NCBI GenBank assembly: GCA_018335655.1
Contig: JAGXRX010000055.1
Coordinates: 1 to 61,750 of the forward strand
Source: Erysipelothrix sp.
Lineage (GTDB): Bacteria > Bacillota_I > Bacilli_A > Erysipelotrichales > Erysipelotrichaceae
Direction of reading: 5' to 3'
Length of the DNA: 61,750 nucleotides
Part shown: positions 31,080 through 41,258 of the stretch, one piece after another
How the letters are laid out: every line of letters begins with the position of its first letter
Position numbering within the stretch: position 1 is the first letter of the stretch
The notes under the pieces: generated by a model
What the model was told of the DNA's origin: nothing
Database searches by the model: none
What the model saw: only the letters and a program-made list of their open reading frames with translations
Translations under genes and position numbers: made by a program

Positions 31080-31283
31080 ATGAATCCTATATCAGAGTAC
31101 ATTAAAAAAAGTAGAAAAGAAGCAGGACTTACACAAGAGGAATTTGCTTTACGTTCAGGAATTGGACTTAGATTTATAAGAGATTTGGAACAAGGAAAAG
31201 AAACAGTTCGCATGGATAAAGTAAATATTGCATTGAGTATGTTTGGAATGGAGGCTGTACCTGGAAGAAAGGGGAGTAAATAA
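31080..31283 (+). CDS. hipB: HipB-like XRE antitoxin/repressor
   Basis: A 67-residue protein that is essentially one XRE helix-turn-helix (SRKEAGLTQEEFALRSGIG, then RFIRDLEQGKETVRMDKVN). HipB-type proteins bind palindromes in their own promoter and form complexes with HipA-family kinases. The order HTH gene, small HipA-N gene, kinase gene matches the tripartite HipBST type, in which HipS rather than HipB is the main neutraliser. The stop overlaps the next start by one base (31283). Operators upstream support autoregulation. Confidence 0.88.
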   Translation: MNPISEYIKKSRKEAGLTQEEFALRSGIGLRFIRDLEQGKETVRMDKVNIALSMFGMEAVPGRKGSK

Positions 31284-31612
31284 TGGGTTTATTTAGAACT
31301 GCATTTGTGTACGTTAGGAATCATTATGCAGGGGAATTGAATGAAATAGATTCAGGTTATTCTTTTCAGTATAATGAGGACTATTTAGAAGCATTAACTT
31401 CAACAGCTGTTTCACTCACACTTCCATTTAAAAAGGAACCTTACCTTTCAAAAACTCTATTTCCGTTTTTTGATGGATTAATACCTGAGGGGTGGTTACT
31501 TGAAGTTGTAGTTCGAAATTGGAAGATTGATCACAAAGATCGTTTTGGTCTTCTTCTAGTTGCTTGTAAAGATTGCGTTGGTAATGTCAGTATAAGTGAG
31601 GAAAAAATATGA
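31283..31612 (+). CDS. hipS: HipS-like antitoxin (HipA N-terminal subdomain 1 alone)
   Basis: A 109-residue protein equal to the N-terminal lobe of classical HipA (Couple_hipA type): VYVRNHYAGELNEIDSGYSFQYNEDYL, then SLTLPFKKEPYLSKTLFPFFDGLIPEGW, and DRFGLLLVACKDCVGNVSI. In classical HipA these residues are fused to the kinase; here they form a separate gene that overlaps the kinase gene by four bases. In the described E. coli HipBST system the free subdomain inhibits the HipT kinase, and the same is inferred here. Confidence 0.85.
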   Translation: MGLFRTAFVYVRNHYAGELNEIDSGYSFQYNEDYLEALTSTAVSLTLPFKKEPYLSKTLFPFFDGLIPEGWLLEVVVRNWKIDHKDRFGLLLVACKDCVGNVSISEEKI

Positions 31613-32559
31613 ACTGTTACTGCTGTGGGAAACAAATAAAATCAGAAAACGTGAATGGATGGCATACATCATGCATTAAACGTTTTTTTGGGACATCAAC
31701 TTTTCCAAGTATTGAAATTGACGAAAAAGCTTTACGAGAACTAGCAAATGATGGATCAAGAAAAGGATTTACAATTCCTGGAGTCCAGAAGAAACTATCA
31801 CTACACTTATATAAAGAAAGAAAACAACAACCAAGACTTACATTAATAGACTATCCTATGGGGTATATCTTAAAACCTCAAGTTCAAGAATACGAGAATC
31901 TTCCTGAATCTGAACACTTGATAATGAAGATGGCTGAAGTTACAGGTATTTCTACTGTTCCTCACGCATTAATTAAAGAAAGTAATCAATATGCCTATAT
32001 AACCAAAAGAATTGATCGAGTCATTAATGGACATGATGTGAAGAAACTTGCCATGGAAGATTTTTGCCAATTAGACCAAAGGTTAACAGAAGATAAATAT
32101 CGTGGATCATATGAACGATGTGCTAAAATCGTTCAGAAGTATTCTAGTAAAGTTGGGCTTGATATGACTGAACTATTTTTGCGGGTAGTCTTTTCTTTTG
32201 TGGTTGGCAACTCTGATATGCATTTGAAAAACTTCTCACTTATAGAAACAGATGAAGGAAGTAATCACTATATTCTTTCACCAGCTTACGATATACTTCC
32301 AGTTAGTATAATTTTGCCAGAAGATAATGAAGAAGTTGCTTTATCACTTAATGGAAAGAAGACAAATTTAAGAAAGAATGATTTTTATGCATTTTCGAAA
32401 CAATGTGGATTATCAAAAATAGTAGCAGATAGAATGATTAACAAAGTTGTCTCATTGAAAGAACATTACATTGAAATGTGCAACGAATCATTGTTGCCAC
32501 AACATCTCAAACTCAATTTAATAGATCTTATTAATAAGAGAATAAGTGTATTGCTATAA
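31609..32559 (+). CDS. hipT: HipT-like serine/threonine kinase toxin
   Basis: A 316-residue HipA-family kinase lacking subdomain 1. An N-terminal zinc-ribbon-like cluster (C3, C5, C6, H19, C22) precedes the Gly-rich loop GFTIPGVQKKLSL near 53-65, where E. coli HipT has an SIS phosphoacceptor motif and this protein has TIP (55-57). The catalytic aspartate is D203 in GNSDMHLKN, and the metal-binding aspartate is D228 in PAYDILP. HipA-family kinases phosphorylate aminoacyl-tRNA synthetases and stop growth. All catalytic residues are present, so it appears functional. Codon use (many AGA, ATA) differs from neighbouring core genes. Confidence 0.88.
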   Translation: MNCYCCGKQIKSENVNGWHTSCIKRFFGTSTFPSIEIDEKALRELANDGSRKGFTIPGVQKKLSLHLYKERKQQPRLTLIDYPMGYILKPQVQEYENLPESEHLIMKMAEVTGISTVPHALIKESNQYAYITKRIDRVINGHDVKKLAMEDFCQLDQRLTEDKYRGSYERCAKIVQKYSSKVGLDMTELFLRVVFSFVVGNSDMHLKNFSLIETDEGSNHYILSPAYDILPVSIILPEDNEEVALSLNGKKTNLRKNDFYAFSKQCGLSKIVADRMINKVVSLKEHYIEMCNESLLPQHLKLNLIDLINKRISVLL

Positions 32560-33867: not shown

Positions 33868-33895
33868 ATACAAGTAAGCATTTTTGCAATAAAAA

Positions 33896-33921
33896 AGTTT
33901 ATTCATTAAACTGAATAAACT
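33896..33921. repeat. 10-bp perfect inverted repeat
   Basis: AGTTTATTCA, loop TTAAAC, TGAATAAACT. It is preceded by six A, so on the minus strand it reads as a hairpin followed by T: a likely terminator for the minus-strand 33-residue ORF. Confidence 0.6.
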
Positions 33922-33994: not shown

Positions 33995-34096
33995 TTAAAG
34001 TCTGAAAGCTTTGAGCATCATTTGAATGCACTCAGCCAACTCTTGACCACGATGGCCCATTGTTGTAATGCAGTTAGCAAGTAATAATCCGAACAT
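33995..34096 (-). CDS. 33-residue ORF with perfect ribosome binding site and a cop-box promoter
   Basis: A 33-codon ORF begins MFGLLLANCITTMGHRGQEL and ends in RL. It carries two cysteines (C9, C23), a histidine and a hydrophobic N-terminus. The ribosome binding site AAGGAGGTGATGAT is a near-complete complement of the 16S 3' end. The promoter has TATAAA (34129-34124), with TACATATGTA directly upstream. A hairpin plus T-run follows on the minus strand. I do not recognise a family. Position in the copper island and the paired Cys/His suggest a metal-related peptide, but this is inference. Confidence 0.6.
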   Translation of the reverse strand: MFGLLLANCITTMGHRGQELAECIQMMLKAFRL

Positions 34097-34132
34097 ATCA
34101 TCACCTCCTTTTTTCATCTTTAGTTTATACCG

Positions 34133-34142
34133 TACATATGTA
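34133..34142. promoter_or_regulatory. cop-box-like palindrome TACATATGTA
   Basis: It fits the CopY operator consensus TACANNTGTA exactly and sits in the spacer of the minus-strand small-ORF promoter, 155 bp before copA. A related half-site, TACATATCCA, lies at 34225-34234 just before the copA -10. Confidence 0.6.
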
Positions 34143-34236
34143 GAAATGATGAAGATTAATAACTTCTAGTTTTTTTCATCTATTATTTGCGAATAGATGC
34201 AAAATATAGAATCTTCATAAAATCTACATATCCACT

Positions 34237-34245
34237 TGGTATTAT
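34237..34245 (+). promoter_or_regulatory. copA promoter, extended -10
   Basis: TGG-TATTAT (TATTAT at 34240-34245) with no clear -35. The half cop-box at 34225-34234 lies in the spacer position. Confidence 0.5.
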
Positions 34246-34297: not shown

Positions 34298-36760
34298 ATG
34301 CAACAGAGTTATAAGATTATAGGCATGACATGTGCAGCATGTGCACAAAAAATTGAGAAAGTGACATCAAAAATAAATGGTGTTGAAACCTCAAATGTGA
34401 ATTTCGCAACTGAAAAATTACACATTAAGTATGATGAAGGAACTGTTTCAAACAGTGATATTCAATCAGCCATTAAAAAAGCTGGATATGAAGCTGAAGC
34501 AGAAATTCAAGAGAAGCAAATTACCATGCCAATTAGTGGTATGACATGTGCAGCGTGTGCAAACAAGATTGAAAAAACAGTCGCTCAGTTAGAAGGTGTC
34601 AGTATTGCATCCGTTAACTTCGCAACAGAAAAATTGAGTATAAAATATGATCCAACGATCACTAGAATATCAACAATCAAAGCAGCAGTCATTAAAATTG
34701 GATATACACCACTGGAAAGTGTGGGTATTAATCAAGTTGATGAAGACAAAAAGCGTAAAGAAAAAGAAATAAAAGTAATGTGGATCAAGTTTGTAATCTC
34801 AATTATATTCTCACTACCACTTTTATATATTTCAATGGCACCAATGATTACCATTATTGACCTTCCTTTACCAATGTCTCTTAATCCGATGATGAATCCA
34901 GTAAATTACACAATCACTCAAATACTATTATCCATCCCTGTGATACTAGCAGGATATAGATTTTATGTGGTAGGATTTAGAGCTATTTGGCTAAGATCAC
35001 CAAACATGGATTCATTAATTGCGATGGGTACATCTGCAGCTGTGATCTACAGTGCTGCTATCTCATTTCAAATCTTTAATGGCAATTACACAAATGTACA
35101 AAACATGTATTATGAAACTGCAGCAGTCATTGTAGCTCTATTACTTTTAGGTAAAGCACTAGAAGCAGTTTCAAAAGGTAAAACATCAGAAGCTATTAAA
35201 AAACTAATTGGTCTTGCTCCAAAGACAGCGCTTGTACTTCATGAAGGTAAAGAAGTAGTTATATCTGTTGATGAAGTGGAAGTAGGCGATGTCATTATTG
35301 TTAAACCAGGTGAGAAAATACCAGTTGATGGGGAAGTTGTTAATGGCTATACATCCATTAATGAATCCATGCTTACCGGTGAAAGCATGCCTGTTGAGAA
35401 ACGAGTTGGAAGTCAAGTCTTTGCGGCAAGTATCAATGGGAACGGCATGATTCAGTTTAAAGCAACTAAAGTTGGAGCAGACACAGCCTTAGCTCAAATC
35501 ATCAAGTTAGTAGAAGATGCACAAGGATCAAAAGCTCCAATTGCTCAACTTGCTGATGTGGTCTCTGGATACTTTGTACCTATTGCATTTATGATTGCTT
35601 TAATCTCAGCAATAGCATGGGCAATTAGTGGGCAACCAATTACATTTGCACTCACTATATTCATCTCAGTTTTAGTTATCGCATGTCCTTGTGCTTTAGG
35701 TCTTGCAACACCTACTGCTATCATGGTAGGAACAGGAAAAGGTGCAGAAAATGGAGTTCTCATTAAGAGTGGGGCTGCATTAGAAATGGCTTACAAAGTT
35801 AACACAATCATTTTTGATAAAACAGGAACAATTACAGAAGGTAAACCAGTAGTAACAGACATAGTCATGTTATCCAATTATTCCCAAGACTATCTCTTAC
35901 AAATCGCAGCATCTGCTGAAAAAGGCTCAGAACATCCTCTAGGTGATGCAATCGTTAAAGGCGCACAAGCAAAAGGTTTAGAGATGTTATCTATCGAATC
36001 ATTTGAAGCAATTCCTGGACATGGTATTGAGGTGAGAATTGATGGTCAACATTTACTTCTTGGTAATCGTAAATTGATGGTAAAACATAATGTAAGTTTA
36101 CTAGAAAGTGTTTCTATTTCAGATGATTTAGCTGATGAAGGCAAAACACCAATGTTCATTGCCATCGATGGGAAAATGGCAGGAATCATTGCAGTCGCAG
36201 ATATTGTGAAGAAAAGTAGTTCTAATGCAATTAAAAAATTAAAACAAATGGGTATTGAAGTAGCAATGATTACCGGAGACAATCGTAAAACTGCAGATGC
36301 AATTGCTAGACAAGTTGGAATCACGACTGTATTAGCAGAAGTATTACCACAAGACAAATCCTTTGAAGTTAAAAAGTTACAAGAAGCCGGTCGAATTGTT
36401 GCCATGGTTGGAGATGGAATCAATGATGCACCTGCATTAGCCCAATCAGATATTGGTATTGCGATTGGATCAGGAACAGATGTAGCCATGGAATCTGCGG
36501 ATATTGTCTTAATGAGAAGTGATCTAATGGATGTACCGACAGCTTTAAAACTCAGTAAGAGTACTATAAGAAATATTAAAGAGAATTTATTCTGGGCTTT
36601 TGCATATAATATCTTAGGTATTCCTATTGCAGCTGGTGTGCTTTTCATCTTTGGAGGACCTACATTAAATCCAATCTATGCAGCTGCCGCAATGTCATTG
36701 TCCTCAATTTCAGTTCTATCCAATGCATTACGATTAAAATCATTTAAACCATACAAATAA
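34298..36760 (+). CDS. copA: copper-exporting P1B-type ATPase
   Basis: An 820-residue Cu(I) pump with two N-terminal HMA domains, each with GMTCAAC (C12/C15 and C84/C87), eight membrane helices, LTGES in the actuator domain, the intramembrane CPC at 463-465, phosphorylated D507 in DKTGT, SEHPLG, and [10 protein letters not shown]. The last helices contain the YN and MSLSS residues of the Cu(I) subgroup. It drives cytoplasmic copper out of the cell. I start at 34298 after GTGGAGG rather than 34268. It leads the operon copA-csoR-fusion-copZ. Confidence 0.97.
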
Positions 36761-36776
36761 GTGACATCTGAAAAAC

Positions 36777-37046
36777 ATGAAAAAAAGACCTGAAGCACGC
36801 ATTGATTTAGATTCTATCACAAATAGATTGAGTCGAATTGAAGGGCAAGTTCGTGGTATTAAAGGCATGATTGAAAAAGAAAGTCCTTGTATTGAAGTGT
36901 TAAATCAAGTTGCCTCAGTTCAATCTGCCTTGAATTCAGTTAAAATCATCCTATTTGAACGACACTTAAGAATGTGTTTGTTGACAGATGAAGCTATTGA
37001 ACAGAAATGCAATGAGTTAATTGAAACAATGAATTTTATATTCTAA
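36777..37046 (+). CDS. csoR: copper-sensing repressor CsoR
   Basis: An 89-residue all-helical repressor of the CsoR/RcnR family. The Cu(I) ligand set Cys-His-Cys is intact: C38 (ESPCIEVL), H63 and C67 (RHLRMC). Such proteins leave DNA when Cu(I) binds, de-repressing copA and copZ. It lies 16 bases after copA in the same direction; no clear ribosome binding site precedes the ATG, so low-level translation or coupling is likely. The nearby palindrome is CopY-type rather than a classic G-tract CsoR operator. Confidence 0.92.
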   Translation: MKKRPEARIDLDSITNRLSRIEGQVRGIKGMIEKESPCIEVLNQVASVQSALNSVKIILFERHLRMCLLTDEAIEQKCNELIETMNFIF

Positions 37047-37222: not shown

Positions 37223-38629
37223 ATGTTTCAATGCGTAAAAACAATTTATCAATACTTAGGAGGTATCAACCTGGATAATTTAGTAAGAATAGTCTTGAAT
37301 GTTGATGGAATGACATGTGTAGGTTGTGAAAACAAGATTCAATCTAAGTTAAAGAAAACCGATGGTGTCATTTCAGTAAAAGCGAGCTATGCGAATGGTA
37401 CAGTGAAAATCACGTTCGATCGTACAATTACAACGCTTAAGAAACTTAAACGATTAATTAGTTTAATGGATTATATAGTAGTTGAATCAAGTACTACTAA
37501 GAATAAACCTAAGGAGAATACGCTTGAAAAGATTGTTGATGCTATCACTATTGGTGTTATTATCCTTGTTCTTTATCACTTTGCTCAAAGATTTGGACTA
37601 CTCAATGTCTTCAATTCATTTCCAGAAGCACAACAAGGTATGAGTTACGGTGTTTTATTTATTATTGGATTATTTACCTCAGTACACTGTGTTGCAATGT
37701 GTGGTGGCATCAATCTATCTCAATGTATACCGCAACATCGCTCAATACCACAAAATGGGGTAGACAATCTTATGCCAAGTTTCTTGTATAATTCTGGTCG
37801 TGTTGTATCGTATACCATTATTGGTGGACTCGTTGGTGCATTAGGTTCAGTAGTGTCATTTTCTGGAGCTGCAAAAGGTATCGTCGCTATTATTGCGGGT
37901 GTCTTTATGTTAATCATGGGCGTTAATATGCTCAATATCTTCCCATGGTTGAGAAAGTTTAATCCACGGTTGCCTAGATTTCTAGGCAAAATTGTAAATA
38001 GTGAGAAAAATCGTTATTCAAGTCGATTTTACGTAGGATTACTAAATGGTTTAATGCCTTGTGGTCCTTTACAAGCAATGCAACTGTATGCATTATCCAC
38101 TGGAGATCCAATAAAGGGTGCGTTATCAATGTTCTTCTTTAGTATTGGTACAGTTCCACTTATGTTTGGACTAGGTGCTTTAAGCTCACTTTTAAGTAAA
38201 GCATTTAATGCTAAAATGATCCAAGTCAGTGCAGTATTAGTAGTAATTCTAGGTTTCGCCATGTTTCAAACAGGATTAGGTGTTTCTGGCATACAATTGC
38301 CATCAATCTCAACTGTATTGGGGTTTTCAAAAGATATTGATAATGTTGCGGTTGTAGAAAGTGATGGAATACAAAGAGTAACCTCTGGTATCACATCTGA
38401 TAGTTATGAATCAATTTCACTTAAAGCAAATGTTCCTGCGCAGTGGACCATTCATGTCGATGCAGGTGATTTAAATGGATGTAATTATCGCATTATATCT
38501 CAAAATTTAGGTATAAGAGTTGAGTTAGTAGAAGGGGATAACGTTATAGAGGTTACACCCAAACGAAAAGGAACGTACACGTTTACATGTTGGATGGGAA
38601 TGATTCGAAGTTACATAATAGTCAACTGA
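37223..38629 (+). CDS. HMA / TauE-SafE-like membrane / cupredoxin-like fusion protein
   Basis: A 468-residue three-part protein. Residues about 20-85 form an HMA domain (VDGMTCVGCENKI). A six-helix DsbD/UreH-like membrane domain follows with FTSVHCVAMCGG near 150-161 and a second half-repeat around GLLNGLMPCGPLQAM, both carrying Cys. The final 80 residues look cupredoxin-like (VPAQWTIHVDAGDLNGC, YTFTCWMGM) with His, Cys and Met ligand candidates. Proteins of this layout occur with copper systems and are thought to move or buffer copper across the membrane. The ATG at 37223 has no ribosome binding site; AGGAGG at 37258-37263 would suit a CTG at 37271. Confidence 0.8.
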   Translation: MFQCVKTIYQYLGGINLDNLVRIVLNVDGMTCVGCENKIQSKLKKTDGVISVKASYANGTVKITFDRTITTLKKLKRLISLMDYIVVESSTTKNKPKENTLEKIVDAITIGVIILVLYHFAQRFGLLNVFNSFPEAQQGMSYGVLFIIGLFTSVHCVAMCGGINLSQCIPQHRSIPQNGVDNLMPSFLYNSGRVVSYTIIGGLVGALGSVVSFSGAAKGIVAIIAGVFMLIMGVNMLNIFPWLRKFNPRLPRFLGKIVNSEKNRYSSRFYVGLLNGLMPCGPLQAMQLYALSTGDPIKGALSMFFFSIGTVPLMFGLGALSSLLSKAFNAKMIQVSAVLVVILGFAMFQTGLGVSGIQLPSISTVLGFSKDIDNVAVVESDGIQRVTSGITSDSYESISLKANVPAQWTIHVDAGDLNGCNYRIISQNLGIRVELVEGDNVIEVTPKRKGTYTFTCWMGMIRSYIIVN

Positions 38630-38638
38630 AAGGAAAAT

Positions 38639-38845
38639 ATGGAAAAAACTAAATTAATCGTTGGAGGGATGTCTTGTGCACATTGTGAGCATTCCATTAA
38701 AAAAGCTTTATTAGAGAATAAAGGAATTGTGAGCGTTGAAGTTTCTTTAAGTCAAAAGGTAGTATCCGTTGAATATTCAGATTTAAGCATAACTCCTCTA
38801 AAAATAAGACAAATCATCGAAGAAATCGGATATGATGTTCTCTAA
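38639..38845 (+). CDS. copZ: copper chaperone CopZ
   Basis: A 68-residue single HMA domain with the Cu(I) motif GGMSCAHC (C12 and C15) and the normal beta-alpha-beta-beta-alpha-beta length. CopZ delivers copper to CopA and to the repressor. It lies nine bases after the fusion gene with AAAGGAAAAT ahead, and is followed by a terminator at 38938-38966, so copA-csoR-fusion-copZ form one unit. Confidence 0.94.
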   Translation: MEKTKLIVGGMSCAHCEHSIKKALLENKGIVSVEVSLSQKVVSVEYSDLSITPLKIRQIIEEIGYDVL

Positions 38846-39162
38846 ATAGGTATTCTATGAAACATGGTTATTTAATTACTTATTAGTTTATATGAATAAA
38901 GAGCAAGACTTAGGTCATAGACACATCTTTGAATAGGAACTTTATCAGCAATGATAAAGTTTTTCTTCATAGGTTCAACATAACTTAATGATACTCTATC
39001 ATTTGGAATCATATTGAAGAAAAGAATAAAATGGTTAATAGCGAAAAACTGCTAAATTCATTTAATGTAAAACAATCAAAATTCTAGTAGAATATTGATA
39101 TAACATAAAAATCCGTAGTAAATCACAACTTTGTTGAGTTTTAGTACTTTAAGTGAGGTAGT
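38846..39162 (+). other. spacer between copZ and the response regulator gene
   Basis: 317 bases with no supported gene. The left part holds the copZ terminator (38938-38966). The right part is AT-rich leader with a GTGAGGTAGT ribosome binding site just before 39163. I see no clear cop-box here. Confidence 0.6.
38938..38966 (+). terminator. terminator of the copA-copZ operon
   Basis: AACTTTATCA/TGATAAAGTT stem, loop GCAA, then TTTCTTC. Confidence 0.75.
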
Positions 39163-39858
39163 ATGAAAAAGGGTAATATTCTTATTGTTGAGGATGAAGT
39201 AAAACTAGCAGAAATTCTTAAAGTAAATTTCGAGCATCTTGGATATCATGTTGACTCTGTTCAAGATGGTTTAAGTGCGGTCGAATATGTTAAGAAATAT
39301 TCTGTTTCACTTGTTATATTGGATTTAATGATCCCAAAATTGAGTGGTGAAAAAGTTTGTCAAGAAATTCGAAAATTTTCGCGATTACCAATTATCATGT
39401 TGACAGCTCGTTCTAGCGAAGACAACATAATCGATGGTTTAAAACTTGGTGCTGATGACTATATTACAAAGCCTTTTAGTTTAAAAGAATTGAATGCTCG
39501 TGTTGAAACCGTACTTAGAAGATCTGAAAACTCTGTATTTCCACTATTTCAAACTATAAAGCTTGATGGTGAGTTAGAAATTGATATCAGTAAAAAAATA
39601 GTGCATAAAAGAGGAGTAAAAGTCCATCTTACCCCCAATGAGTTTAAGTTACTGCTTGTTTTGATTCATCATCCTAATCGCGTTTTTTCACGTGAAGAAC
39701 TTGTGGAATCAGTGTTTGACATTGACTTTGATGGATATGATCGAACTATTGATACTCACATTAAAAACTTAAGGAATAAAATCGAAGATAATCCCAAAAA
39801 ACCAATATACATTCAGACGGTGTTTGGTGTTGGTTATCGTTTTGGTGAAGTGAAATGA
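39163..39858 (+). CDS. OmpR-family response regulator
   Basis: A 231-residue regulator. The receiver domain (1-120) has acidic E10/D11, phosphoacceptor D54 in LVILDLMIPK and the lysine in YITKPFSL. The C-terminal winged helix (about 135-230) contains LTPNEFKLLLVLIHHPNRVFSREELVE and GVGYRF. Overlap of four bases couples it to the sensor kinase. Being in the copper island suggests a CusR/CopR-like metal-responsive role, but no target box is identified. Confidence 0.92.
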   Translation: MKKGNILIVEDEVKLAEILKVNFEHLGYHVDSVQDGLSAVEYVKKYSVSLVILDLMIPKLSGEKVCQEIRKFSRLPIIMLTARSSEDNIIDGLKLGADDYITKPFSLKELNARVETVLRRSENSVFPLFQTIKLDGELEIDISKKIVHKRGVKVHLTPNEFKLLLVLIHHPNRVFSREELVESVFDIDFDGYDRTIDTHIKNLRNKIEDNPKKPIYIQTVFGVGYRFGEVK

Positions 39859-41258
39859 AACAATCATTAAATAGTAGAATAACATTTGTCATCGTCTTAA
39901 CAGTGTTAGTTGCCGTAGGATTGGTTAGTTTCTTTTCGAGTATCAACATTCACCATCGATTTAGAGATTACATTGCAGAGAAGCAATCACAGACGATTAA
40001 TCAAATAATTGCTCAAATATCTTCACAATATGACGTTAATACAACTACATGGGATCAAGATAAAGTCCATGAAATCGGGATGTCTTCACTTTATACTGGC
40101 TACATTGTAAAAGTCTTTGATAACAAAAACGAATCAGTATGGGATGCTGAAGTTTGGGATATGGATGCCTGTGTGCAACTTATAAACGATGTTTCAGAGC
40201 GAATGTCACATCTGTTTATTGATTATGAAGGTTCATTTTCAACGTATGAGTATCAACTCGAGTACCAAGGGGAGAATATTGGACTTGTGAAAATGAGTTA
40301 TTATGGACCATATTTCTACCAAGAGAACGATTTACTGTTCATTAATCAACTACAAACGATTTTGATTGTTATTGCTATTGTAAGTATTCTTTCAAGTTTA
40401 CTTTTTGGTTTATATTTTGCAAATTCACTGACAAAGCCGTTATTAAGGACTATTGATGCGACAAAAAGCATAGCTTCTGGACAGTTCGAAACTATTGTTG
40501 ATGATAATTCGAATATTATTGAAGTTAGTGAATTAATTAATTCTGTAAATCATCTATCAGATACTTTAGCAAAACAAGATGTCATCAAACGTCAGATTAC
40601 AGCCGATGTAGCACACGAACTGAGAACTCCATTATCAATTTTGCAAATCAGTGTAGAAGCAATAATGGATGGTATAGTGAATTTGGATCAAAAGAGAATT
40701 AAGAGTATTTATGATGAAATTCTAAGGTTATCAACTATTGTAAAAGACATTGATCAGTTGAATCAAATTGAGTGGCACACGCATAAACTTGACTATGAAT
40801 TATTTGACATCAAAGATTTACTCAGTGAGTGCATCCATTCACTTGAGGTTAAGCAACTCGAAAAGAACATCGATGTATTATTCAATTCAGAATCAATTAT
40901 GATTGAAGCTGACAGATATCGATTATTTCAGGTTTTTTATAATATCATTGTTAATGCATATAACTATTCTGAAGAAAATTCAAAATTAATCATTAGCGTA
41001 GATCGTATTCATAACTTCTTAACAATTGTAATCAAAGATACAGGTATCGGTATTCCACAGGAATCAATTCCATATTTGTTTGAAAGGTTCTATCGTGTTG
41101 ATTCATCTCGTAGTCGCGTAAGTGGAGGAAGTGGGATTGGATTAACAATCGTTAAGCAATTAATAGAAGCTCATGGGGGTACTGTAGAAGTAGATAGTGA
41201 AATCAATTTAGGCACAACATTTACAATCATATTGCCAGTAAAAAGAATTAATAATTAA
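39855..41258 (+). CDS. sensor histidine kinase
   Basis: A 467-residue membrane kinase: helix 1 at about 9-30, an extracytoplasmic sensor region of about 130 residues, helix 2 at about 167-190, HAMP at about 190-242, HisKA with H254 in ADVAHELRTPLS, and an HATPase domain with N-box NIIVNAYNYS, G1 DTGIGIP and G2 GGSGIGL. The sensor region has few Cys or Met that would obviously bind copper, so the signal is uncertain. Last gene of the island before the right ald repeat. Confidence 0.93.
   Translation: MKQSLNSRITFVIVLTVLVAVGLVSFFSSINIHHRFRDYIAEKQSQTINQIIAQISSQYDVNTTTWDQDKVHEIGMSSLYTGYIVKVFDNKNESVWDAEVWDMDACVQLINDVSERMSHLFIDYEGSFSTYEYQLEYQGENIGLVKMSYYGPYFYQENDLLFINQLQTILIVIAIVSILSSLLFGLYFANSLTKPLLRTIDATKSIASGQFETIVDDNSNIIEVSELINSVNHLSDTLAKQDVIKRQITADVAHELRTPLSILQISVEAIMDGIVNLDQKRIKSIYDEILRLSTIVKDIDQLNQIEWHTHKLDYELFDIKDLLSECIHSLEVKQLEKNIDVLFNSESIMIEADRYRLFQVFYNIIVNAYNYSEENSKLIISVDRIHNFLTIVIKDTGIGIPQESIPYLFERFYRVDSSRSRVSGGSGIGLTIVKQLIEAHGGTVEVDSEINLGTTFTIILPVKRINN

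Follow-up and report, generated by a model that had tools for sequence, protein, structure and literature searches.

A 33-codon open reading frame on the minus strand (33995-34096) of the window, by which the whole analysed stretch of 61,750 nucleotides from Erysipelothrix sp. is meant, is, as judged by its homologues and the pattern of their substitutions, a real protein-coding gene under purifying selection. Computation supports the gene, its conservation, its membership of a regulon and a predicted helical hairpin, and the best explanation overall, to which belief and doubt attach in about equal measure, is that it encodes a mini-protein of the CopRS regulon whose hairpins would form a dimer binding Cu(I), buffering copper or passing it on. 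If this is true, this conserved product of a copper regulon, with its ~30 residues and two or three cysteines, would rank among the smallest proteins dedicated to copper in bacteria, and it is small enough for chemical synthesis and direct testing. Genes so short are usually missed by standard annotation; copper islands are otherwise well mapped.

The peptide gene, its homologues and the copper island

The features of the island are the following, with the strand in brackets.

33891-33921 (minus): predicted intrinsic terminator of the peptide gene, from folding, with a similar hairpin and T-run in most homologues
33995-34096 (minus): gene of the Cys-containing mini-protein, stop codon included; 11 full-length homologues aligned, purifying selection, unique in the genome
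34097-34110 (minus): Shine-Dalgarno sequence AAGGAGGTGATGAT, GGAG-type in homologues
34122-34127 (minus): putative -10 hexamer TAAACT, exactly 9 nt past the box; 15 of 17 promoters have TANNNT at this offset
34133-34142 (no strand assigned): TACATATGTA, the "cop box" of the initial annotation, judged coincidental and made up of the second box repeat and spacer
34137-34155 (minus): predicted CopR-type direct-repeat operator of the peptide gene, TCTTCATCATTTCTACATA; the genome has just one other exact site
34212-34245 (plus): CopR-type box of copA (34212-34230), 9-nt spacer and -10 TATTAT; 16/18 against the Corynebacterium glutamicum box
34298-36760 (plus): copA, copper-translocating P-type ATPase with two HMA domains (Pfam, NCBIfam)
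36777-37046 (plus): CsoR/RcnR-family metal-sensitive repressor (PF02583)
37265-38629 (plus): HMA-DsbD_2-cupredoxin-like fusion protein (Pfam)
38639-38845 (plus): copZ-like HMA copper chaperone
38964-38997 (plus): third CopR-type box, differing at one position, with 9-nt spacer and -10 TACTCT; it precedes the response-regulator gene
39163-39858 (plus): OmpR/PhoB-type response regulator, proposed CopR (PF00072 and PF00486; similar C-terminal region elsewhere)
39855-41258 (plus): sensor histidine kinase, proposed CopS (PF02518, PF00512, HAMP)

The frame runs from an ATG at 34096 to a TAA at 33995, and its product of 33 amino acids, MFGLLLANCITTMGHRGQELAECIQMMLKAFRL, carries Cys9, Cys23 and His15. 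On the minus strand, the regulator box (34155-34137), the -10 TAAACT (34127-34122), the Shine-Dalgarno sequence (34110-34097, with 7 nt between AAGGAGG and the ATG, and GGAG-type before the homologues as well), the frame and a stem-loop follow one another. This stem-loop (33921-33891) has a 10-bp stem, a 6-nt loop and a T-run, with a folding energy of -9.3 kcal/mol, and a hairpin with a T-run is found at a comparable position at most homologue loci; an automated terminator scan reported no terminator in the region, because it requires at least three G-C pairs. The predicted transcript is monocistronic, of ~220 nt, with the peptide as its sole open reading frame. The gene, single-copy in its own genome, is divergent from copA, which starts at 34298 on the opposite strand, ~200 bp away. 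In half of the peptide loci (L020, L021, L022, L023, L024, L130), a mini-hairpin GTCGAAAGAC stands directly 5' of AAGGAGG or GAAGGAGG, being kept even where the box has diverged.

Regarding homologues, 12 peptide loci were found in 10 Bacillota genomes, mostly Erysipelotrichaceae-type metagenome-assembled genomes, 11 of them full-length and one cut by a contig end. The search of 196 genomes of the GTDB family gave seven other carriers (eight loci), and a degenerate DNA pattern scan of GTDB species genomes added two more, one labelled Eubacteriales and the other a soil Bacillota. Weak profile matches (E>0.003) were taken as chance, except for G034:C32, the second copy of that genome, which is the one cut by the contig end. 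No further carriers were found in class and phylum samples at E<=1e-6 or among 60 relatives of G787, whose own copy lies at a contig end, and no peptide matches came from a tblastn search of plasmids or a pattern scan of viral contigs.

The 11 full-length members have 29-34 residues with the consensus MxGLxLANCIxxCGxRGQELAxCIQMML, where M1, G3, A7, C9, G17, L20, A21, I24 and M27 are invariant and the polar Q18 and E19 nearly so. Cys23 is present in 10 of the 11, G100 having a methionine at that position, and a third cysteine, at position 13, occurs in seven of the 11 and is absent from the window peptide. The pN/pS values are mostly 0.2-0.5 (range 0.16-0.62), with substitutions concentrated at third codon positions. 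The frame stands above chance because of the homologous frames at 11 other loci, the excess of synonymous changes and the changes at third positions. Consequently, the initial annotation, whose described elements (frame, Shine-Dalgarno sequence, palindrome with TATAAA, and inverted repeat with T-run) are all found in the sequence, is upheld by homologues and purifying selection in its claim of a genuine small gene, divergent from copA and with its own promoter, ribosome-binding site and terminator, and other copies of the island keep the frame, so that the loss of conservation which it had named as a refutation is not seen.

It had also known no annotated family for the peptide, and this agrees with the database searches: Pfam and NCBIfam gave empty or unrelated matches, a PDB sequence search gave no match at E<=10, and no homology to known copper-binding proteins was found. 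On sequence grounds, the family of ~31 residues is an unannotated mini-protein that no curated family describes. Codon-level selection bears as well on the reading in which the transcript matters as a regulatory RNA or leader element and the frame is incidental. The short transcript with its terminator and the mini-hairpin before the Shine-Dalgarno sequence in half of the loci would suit it; against it stand the third-position changes and low pN/pS, the lack of a credible Rfam match and the fact that the gene heads no operon in the window. This reading, whose probability is very small, was rejected on the codon-level selection and the Rfam result.

Most peptide loci adjoin copA or copB, CueP, CopZ or a two-component system. 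In G153 and G036 the peptide is likewise divergent from copA, and at the G007 and G100 loci and the two of G025 its neighbours are CueP, CopZ, HMA-DsbD or CopB genes and a two-component system, the peptide being divergent from an FTR1-type permease in G025. No copper genes adjoin the G786 copy or the copies first found in G078 and G034. The HMA-DsbD copper protein occurs in 15 of the 196 family genomes and in seven of the eight peptide carriers of the family (hypergeometric P=2.5e-8, a guide only, as related species share ancestry); in the eighth, G036, which has no HMA-DsbD match, the peptide contig ends within copA. The copper link of the initial annotation is upheld. The peptide is an accessory of copper islands, since the related islands of G140, G005 and G184 are without it.

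Other features of these islands and of the window can be described. The joining of HMA, a DsbD_2 membrane domain and a cupredoxin-like tail in one protein (37265-38629) is a restricted island marker. The CsoR-family gene of the window (36777-37046) keeps the Cys-His-Cys pattern, and the copies in three relatives (L018:3349-3621, L083:6003-6269 and L088:9189-9452) lack, by eye, at least one residue of it, which looks like CsoR decay after a takeover by CopRS. Small SHOCT-domain proteins and a secreted-looking protein of 230-280 amino acids recur in copper islands (L021:8828-9529, L022:10033-10722, L083:2250-3258, L088:5462-6569 and L057:4259-4462), the SHOCT gene of L057 lying directly 5' of the peptide on the same strand. 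FTR1-family permease genes (L021:10204-11040 and L022:8585-9403) lie inside copper islands, divergent from the peptide and without a CopR-type box of their own. Elsewhere in the window (31080-32559), an HTH gene, a gene for a HipA N-terminal domain (109 aa) and a HipA_C kinase gene (316 aa) stand in a row according to Pfam, which is the gene order of a three-gene HipBST-type toxin-antitoxin system.

Direct-repeat promoter and the predicted CopRS regulon

The peptide promoter consists of the 11-bp direct repeat TCTTCATnnnnTCTACATA, followed after exactly 9 nt by a TANNNT -10. The conserved box, TCTNCAYnnnnTCTNCAYA, has two half-sites with an 11-bp period, and these half-sites, adjoining the -10, reach 15 of 15 bases at both the peptide gene and copA. 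TANNNT stands exactly 9 nt past the box in 15 of the 17 peptide and copper-gene promoters, its background frequency being 0.032, and the two exceptions, G078 and G034, show a diverged repeat, TCGACACACTTTCGYAACA, and TAG at this 9-nt distance. A direct repeat next to the -10 is the geometry of OmpR/PhoB-type activators, and an OmpR-type response regulator and a kinase are present in the peptide's own island. Response regulators are also found in the islands of G153, G007, G025 and G100, and the window regulator and those of other peptide-bearing islands have a similar C-terminal DNA-binding region.

Within the 1.65-Mb genome, exact TCTTCATnnnnTCTACATA occurs at only two sites, both between the peptide gene and copA, and a site with one mismatch lies upstream of the response-regulator gene, which is consistent with autoregulation. 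The exact pattern of box plus spacing was found 14 times across the ten genomes: 13 occurrences stand before a copper-island gene or the peptide (copA, CopZ, CueP and a lipoprotein among the genes that follow), and one runs off a contig end. Sites with two mismatches are not clearly commoner than in a reversed-pattern control and were treated as noise without other support. The box is kept in G786 before the SHOCT-peptide operon, though copper genes are not near this operon; elsewhere in that genome, a two-mismatch box-like site precedes a copA-like gene. The box is also retained at the second G034 copy. TTCTACATA taken alone as a motif was discarded, as the window contains it about as often as chance would give; specificity comes only with the two repeats and their fixed distance to the -10.

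An experimentally defined box is available for comparison, as CopR of C. glutamicum binds the direct repeat TGAAGATTTnnTGAAGATTT according to EMSA and mutation data (PMC3140484). The copA box, read on the reverse strand as TGTAGATTTtaTGAAGATTC, matches it at 16/18 positions, the best score in the window, which none of 20 shuffles reached, and the peptide box matches at 14/18, which is not significant alone. Taken together, these patterns make it very probable that the peptide gene belongs to the predicted CopRS regulon, and additional control of its promoter by CsoR may be possible. The promoter grammar (direct repeat, 9 nt, TANNNT) is also a rule for finding the remaining CopR regulon in unannotated Bacillota genomes. 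An inverted repeat, CATCTATT-cgcaaat-AATAGATG, lies at 34175-34198 between the two CopR-type boxes of the intergenic region and is not seen in G153.

The initial annotation had instead read the promoter as a CopY-type cop box, from TACATATGTA at 34133-34142 with an adjoining TATAAA. This palindrome fits TACANNTGTA exactly; however, such palindromes are at chance level in the window (3 found against 1.44 expected), and the full TACANNTGTA is present only in the window, with other loci keeping only TCTACATA-like half sites while the direct repeat is conserved. The left half of the palindrome is itself the second repeat of the 11-bp direct-repeat box, and only this half is kept in relatives. Moreover, a CopY-type repressor gene (PF03965) was not found in the own genome, which is ~90% complete, with control genomes positive. 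The cop-box reading, the probability of which is close to nil, was rejected for these three reasons: no CopY gene found, a palindrome at chance level and its lack of conservation. The TATAAA is displaced as the -10 by the overlapping TAAACT (34127-34122), the likelier hexamer, at a fixed 9 nt from the regulator box. That annotation was therefore right on the gene and the copper link and wrong on the cop box.

Predicted hairpin and the roles proposed for the peptide

AlphaFold predicts the window peptide as a two-helix hairpin (residues 2-13 and 17-31) whose helices are joined by a G-x-x turn, with pLDDT 80 and pTM 0.44. A second member is predicted with this topology as well (pLDDT 77); pTM ranges over 0.36-0.44 across the models, low as expected for 33 residues. 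A Foldseek search of the hairpin against the PDB gave nothing significant. Measured from the hydrophobic face, L6, I10, residue 13, L20, I24 and M27 deviate by 40 degrees at most, C9 by 63 and C23 by 80, the two cysteines being on its edge rather than its centre, and the second helix has a hydrophobic moment of 0.47. No signal peptide or membrane span is evident by inspection, and the peptide is probably cytoplasmic. In the models, the faces of the hairpin suggest thiols and a thioether close to the interior of a bundle, and a Cu(I)-binding dimer is therefore proposed.

What we infer is that the regulator binds, that copper induces the gene, and that the peptide dimerises, binds Cu(I) and buffers it. 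Excess copper would activate the histidine kinase (39855-41258), and the phosphorylated response regulator (39163-39858) would then bind the tandem 11-bp repeats just upstream of the -10, replacing a -35 element and inducing the divergent copA and peptide genes at the same time. The short monocistronic mRNA, with its near-perfect Shine-Dalgarno sequence, would be translated into a two-helix hairpin presenting Cys9, Cys23, in most members Cys13, and the invariant Met27 on or beside the hydrophobic face. This hairpin would most likely dimerise into a small four-helix bundle binding Cu(I), and the loaded bundle could buffer copper or hand it to CopA or CopZ. Counted against a copper buffer are the lack of homology to known copper-binding proteins, the low pTM, the edge position of C9 and C23, the related islands without the peptide, the presence of just two strongly conserved thiols, with G100 having Met at 23, and the first-found G078 and G034 copies, which are away from copper genes and have a diverged box. 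Stated in full, the proposal is of a ~30-residue helical-hairpin family that self-assembles into a Cu(I)-binding four-helix bundle, acting as a minimal Csp-like buffer in the CopRS regulon of environmental Erysipelotrichaceae-type bacteria, and in this form it is put forward tentatively, with doubt prevailing over belief.

The main rival to copper binding is that the peptide works as a feedback regulator in the manner of MgrB: induced by CopR, it would bind the sensor kinase or CopA and tune it, its cysteines sensing copper or redox state. Membership of the regulon of a two-component system, the very small size and the two conserved cysteines speak for such a role, the nearly invariant Q18 and E19 could form an interaction surface, and a regulator-induced feedback peptide with cysteines already exists in MgrB (PMC8404706). 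However, MgrB works by way of its transmembrane and periplasmic parts, while the helices predicted here, 12 and 15 residues long and the second one containing charged and polar residues, reveal no MgrB-like transmembrane segment on inspection, and no signal is evident. In addition, the peptide of G786 follows a SHOCT gene away from the kinase, and the invariant methionine and the third cysteine of most members suit metal binding better. A regulatory role is accordingly held to be unlikely, and of the two possibilities that the initial annotation had offered, a copper-binding or a regulatory peptide, the former is favoured.

The amphipathicity of the helices (moment 0.47 in helix 2), the monocistronic gene and the strong Shine-Dalgarno sequence would also be compatible with a membrane-active or toxic peptide, or with an intercellular signal, for which the copper promoter would serve for timing only. 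But the invariant Cys, Gly and Ala positions exceed what simple amphipathicity asks for, and the peptide is flanked by copper genes, with no immunity gene or dedicated exporter evident beside it, making this role quite improbable.

Comparison with known systems

Among small copper-linked frames, CruR of Bordetella (DUF2946) also has conserved cysteines and stands next to copper genes; however, it is an upstream open reading frame that controls downstream genes by Rho termination and bears CXXC and RAPP motifs (PMC9426467), whereas the present gene is monocistronic with its own terminator, and both motifs are absent from every member. MgrB of the PhoQ/PhoP system (PMC8404706) resembles the peptide in its small size, two functionally important cysteines and induction by a response regulator, and differs in its transmembrane and periplasmic parts, neither of which the peptide apparently has. 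The CopZ/HMA chaperones are likewise small two-cysteine proteins of the same island, with a beta-alpha fold and a CXXC motif, compared to the predicted all-helical peptide with its cysteines 14 positions apart; moreover, the window island already has a separate copZ besides the peptide.

Regarding the regulatory system, the C. glutamicum CopRS shares with the window the 11-bp-period direct repeat, the divergent intergenic region with copper genes on both sides and the 16/18 match of the copA site (PMC3140484). In the available part of the description, that system has a single regulon site and no such mini-protein is mentioned, while the window has one box for each of the two divergent promoters, placed 9 nt before the -10 in both, and a third before the regulator gene.

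The copper storage proteins of the Csp family (Csp3) are similar to the peptide in the predicted helical architecture with cysteines towards the inner face (PMC5171941, PMC10155185). Csp monomers are full four-helix bundles with many cysteines, RkCsp3 binding up to 17 Cu(I) per monomer (PMC5171941, PMC10155185), compared to one predicted hairpin of 31-33 amino acids that has two or three cysteines and shows no similarity to them in sequence searches. Membership of the Csp family was thus rejected, as sequence, length and cysteine number all fail, and the Csp proteins serve as a functional analogy for the storage of Cu(I) in a bundle.
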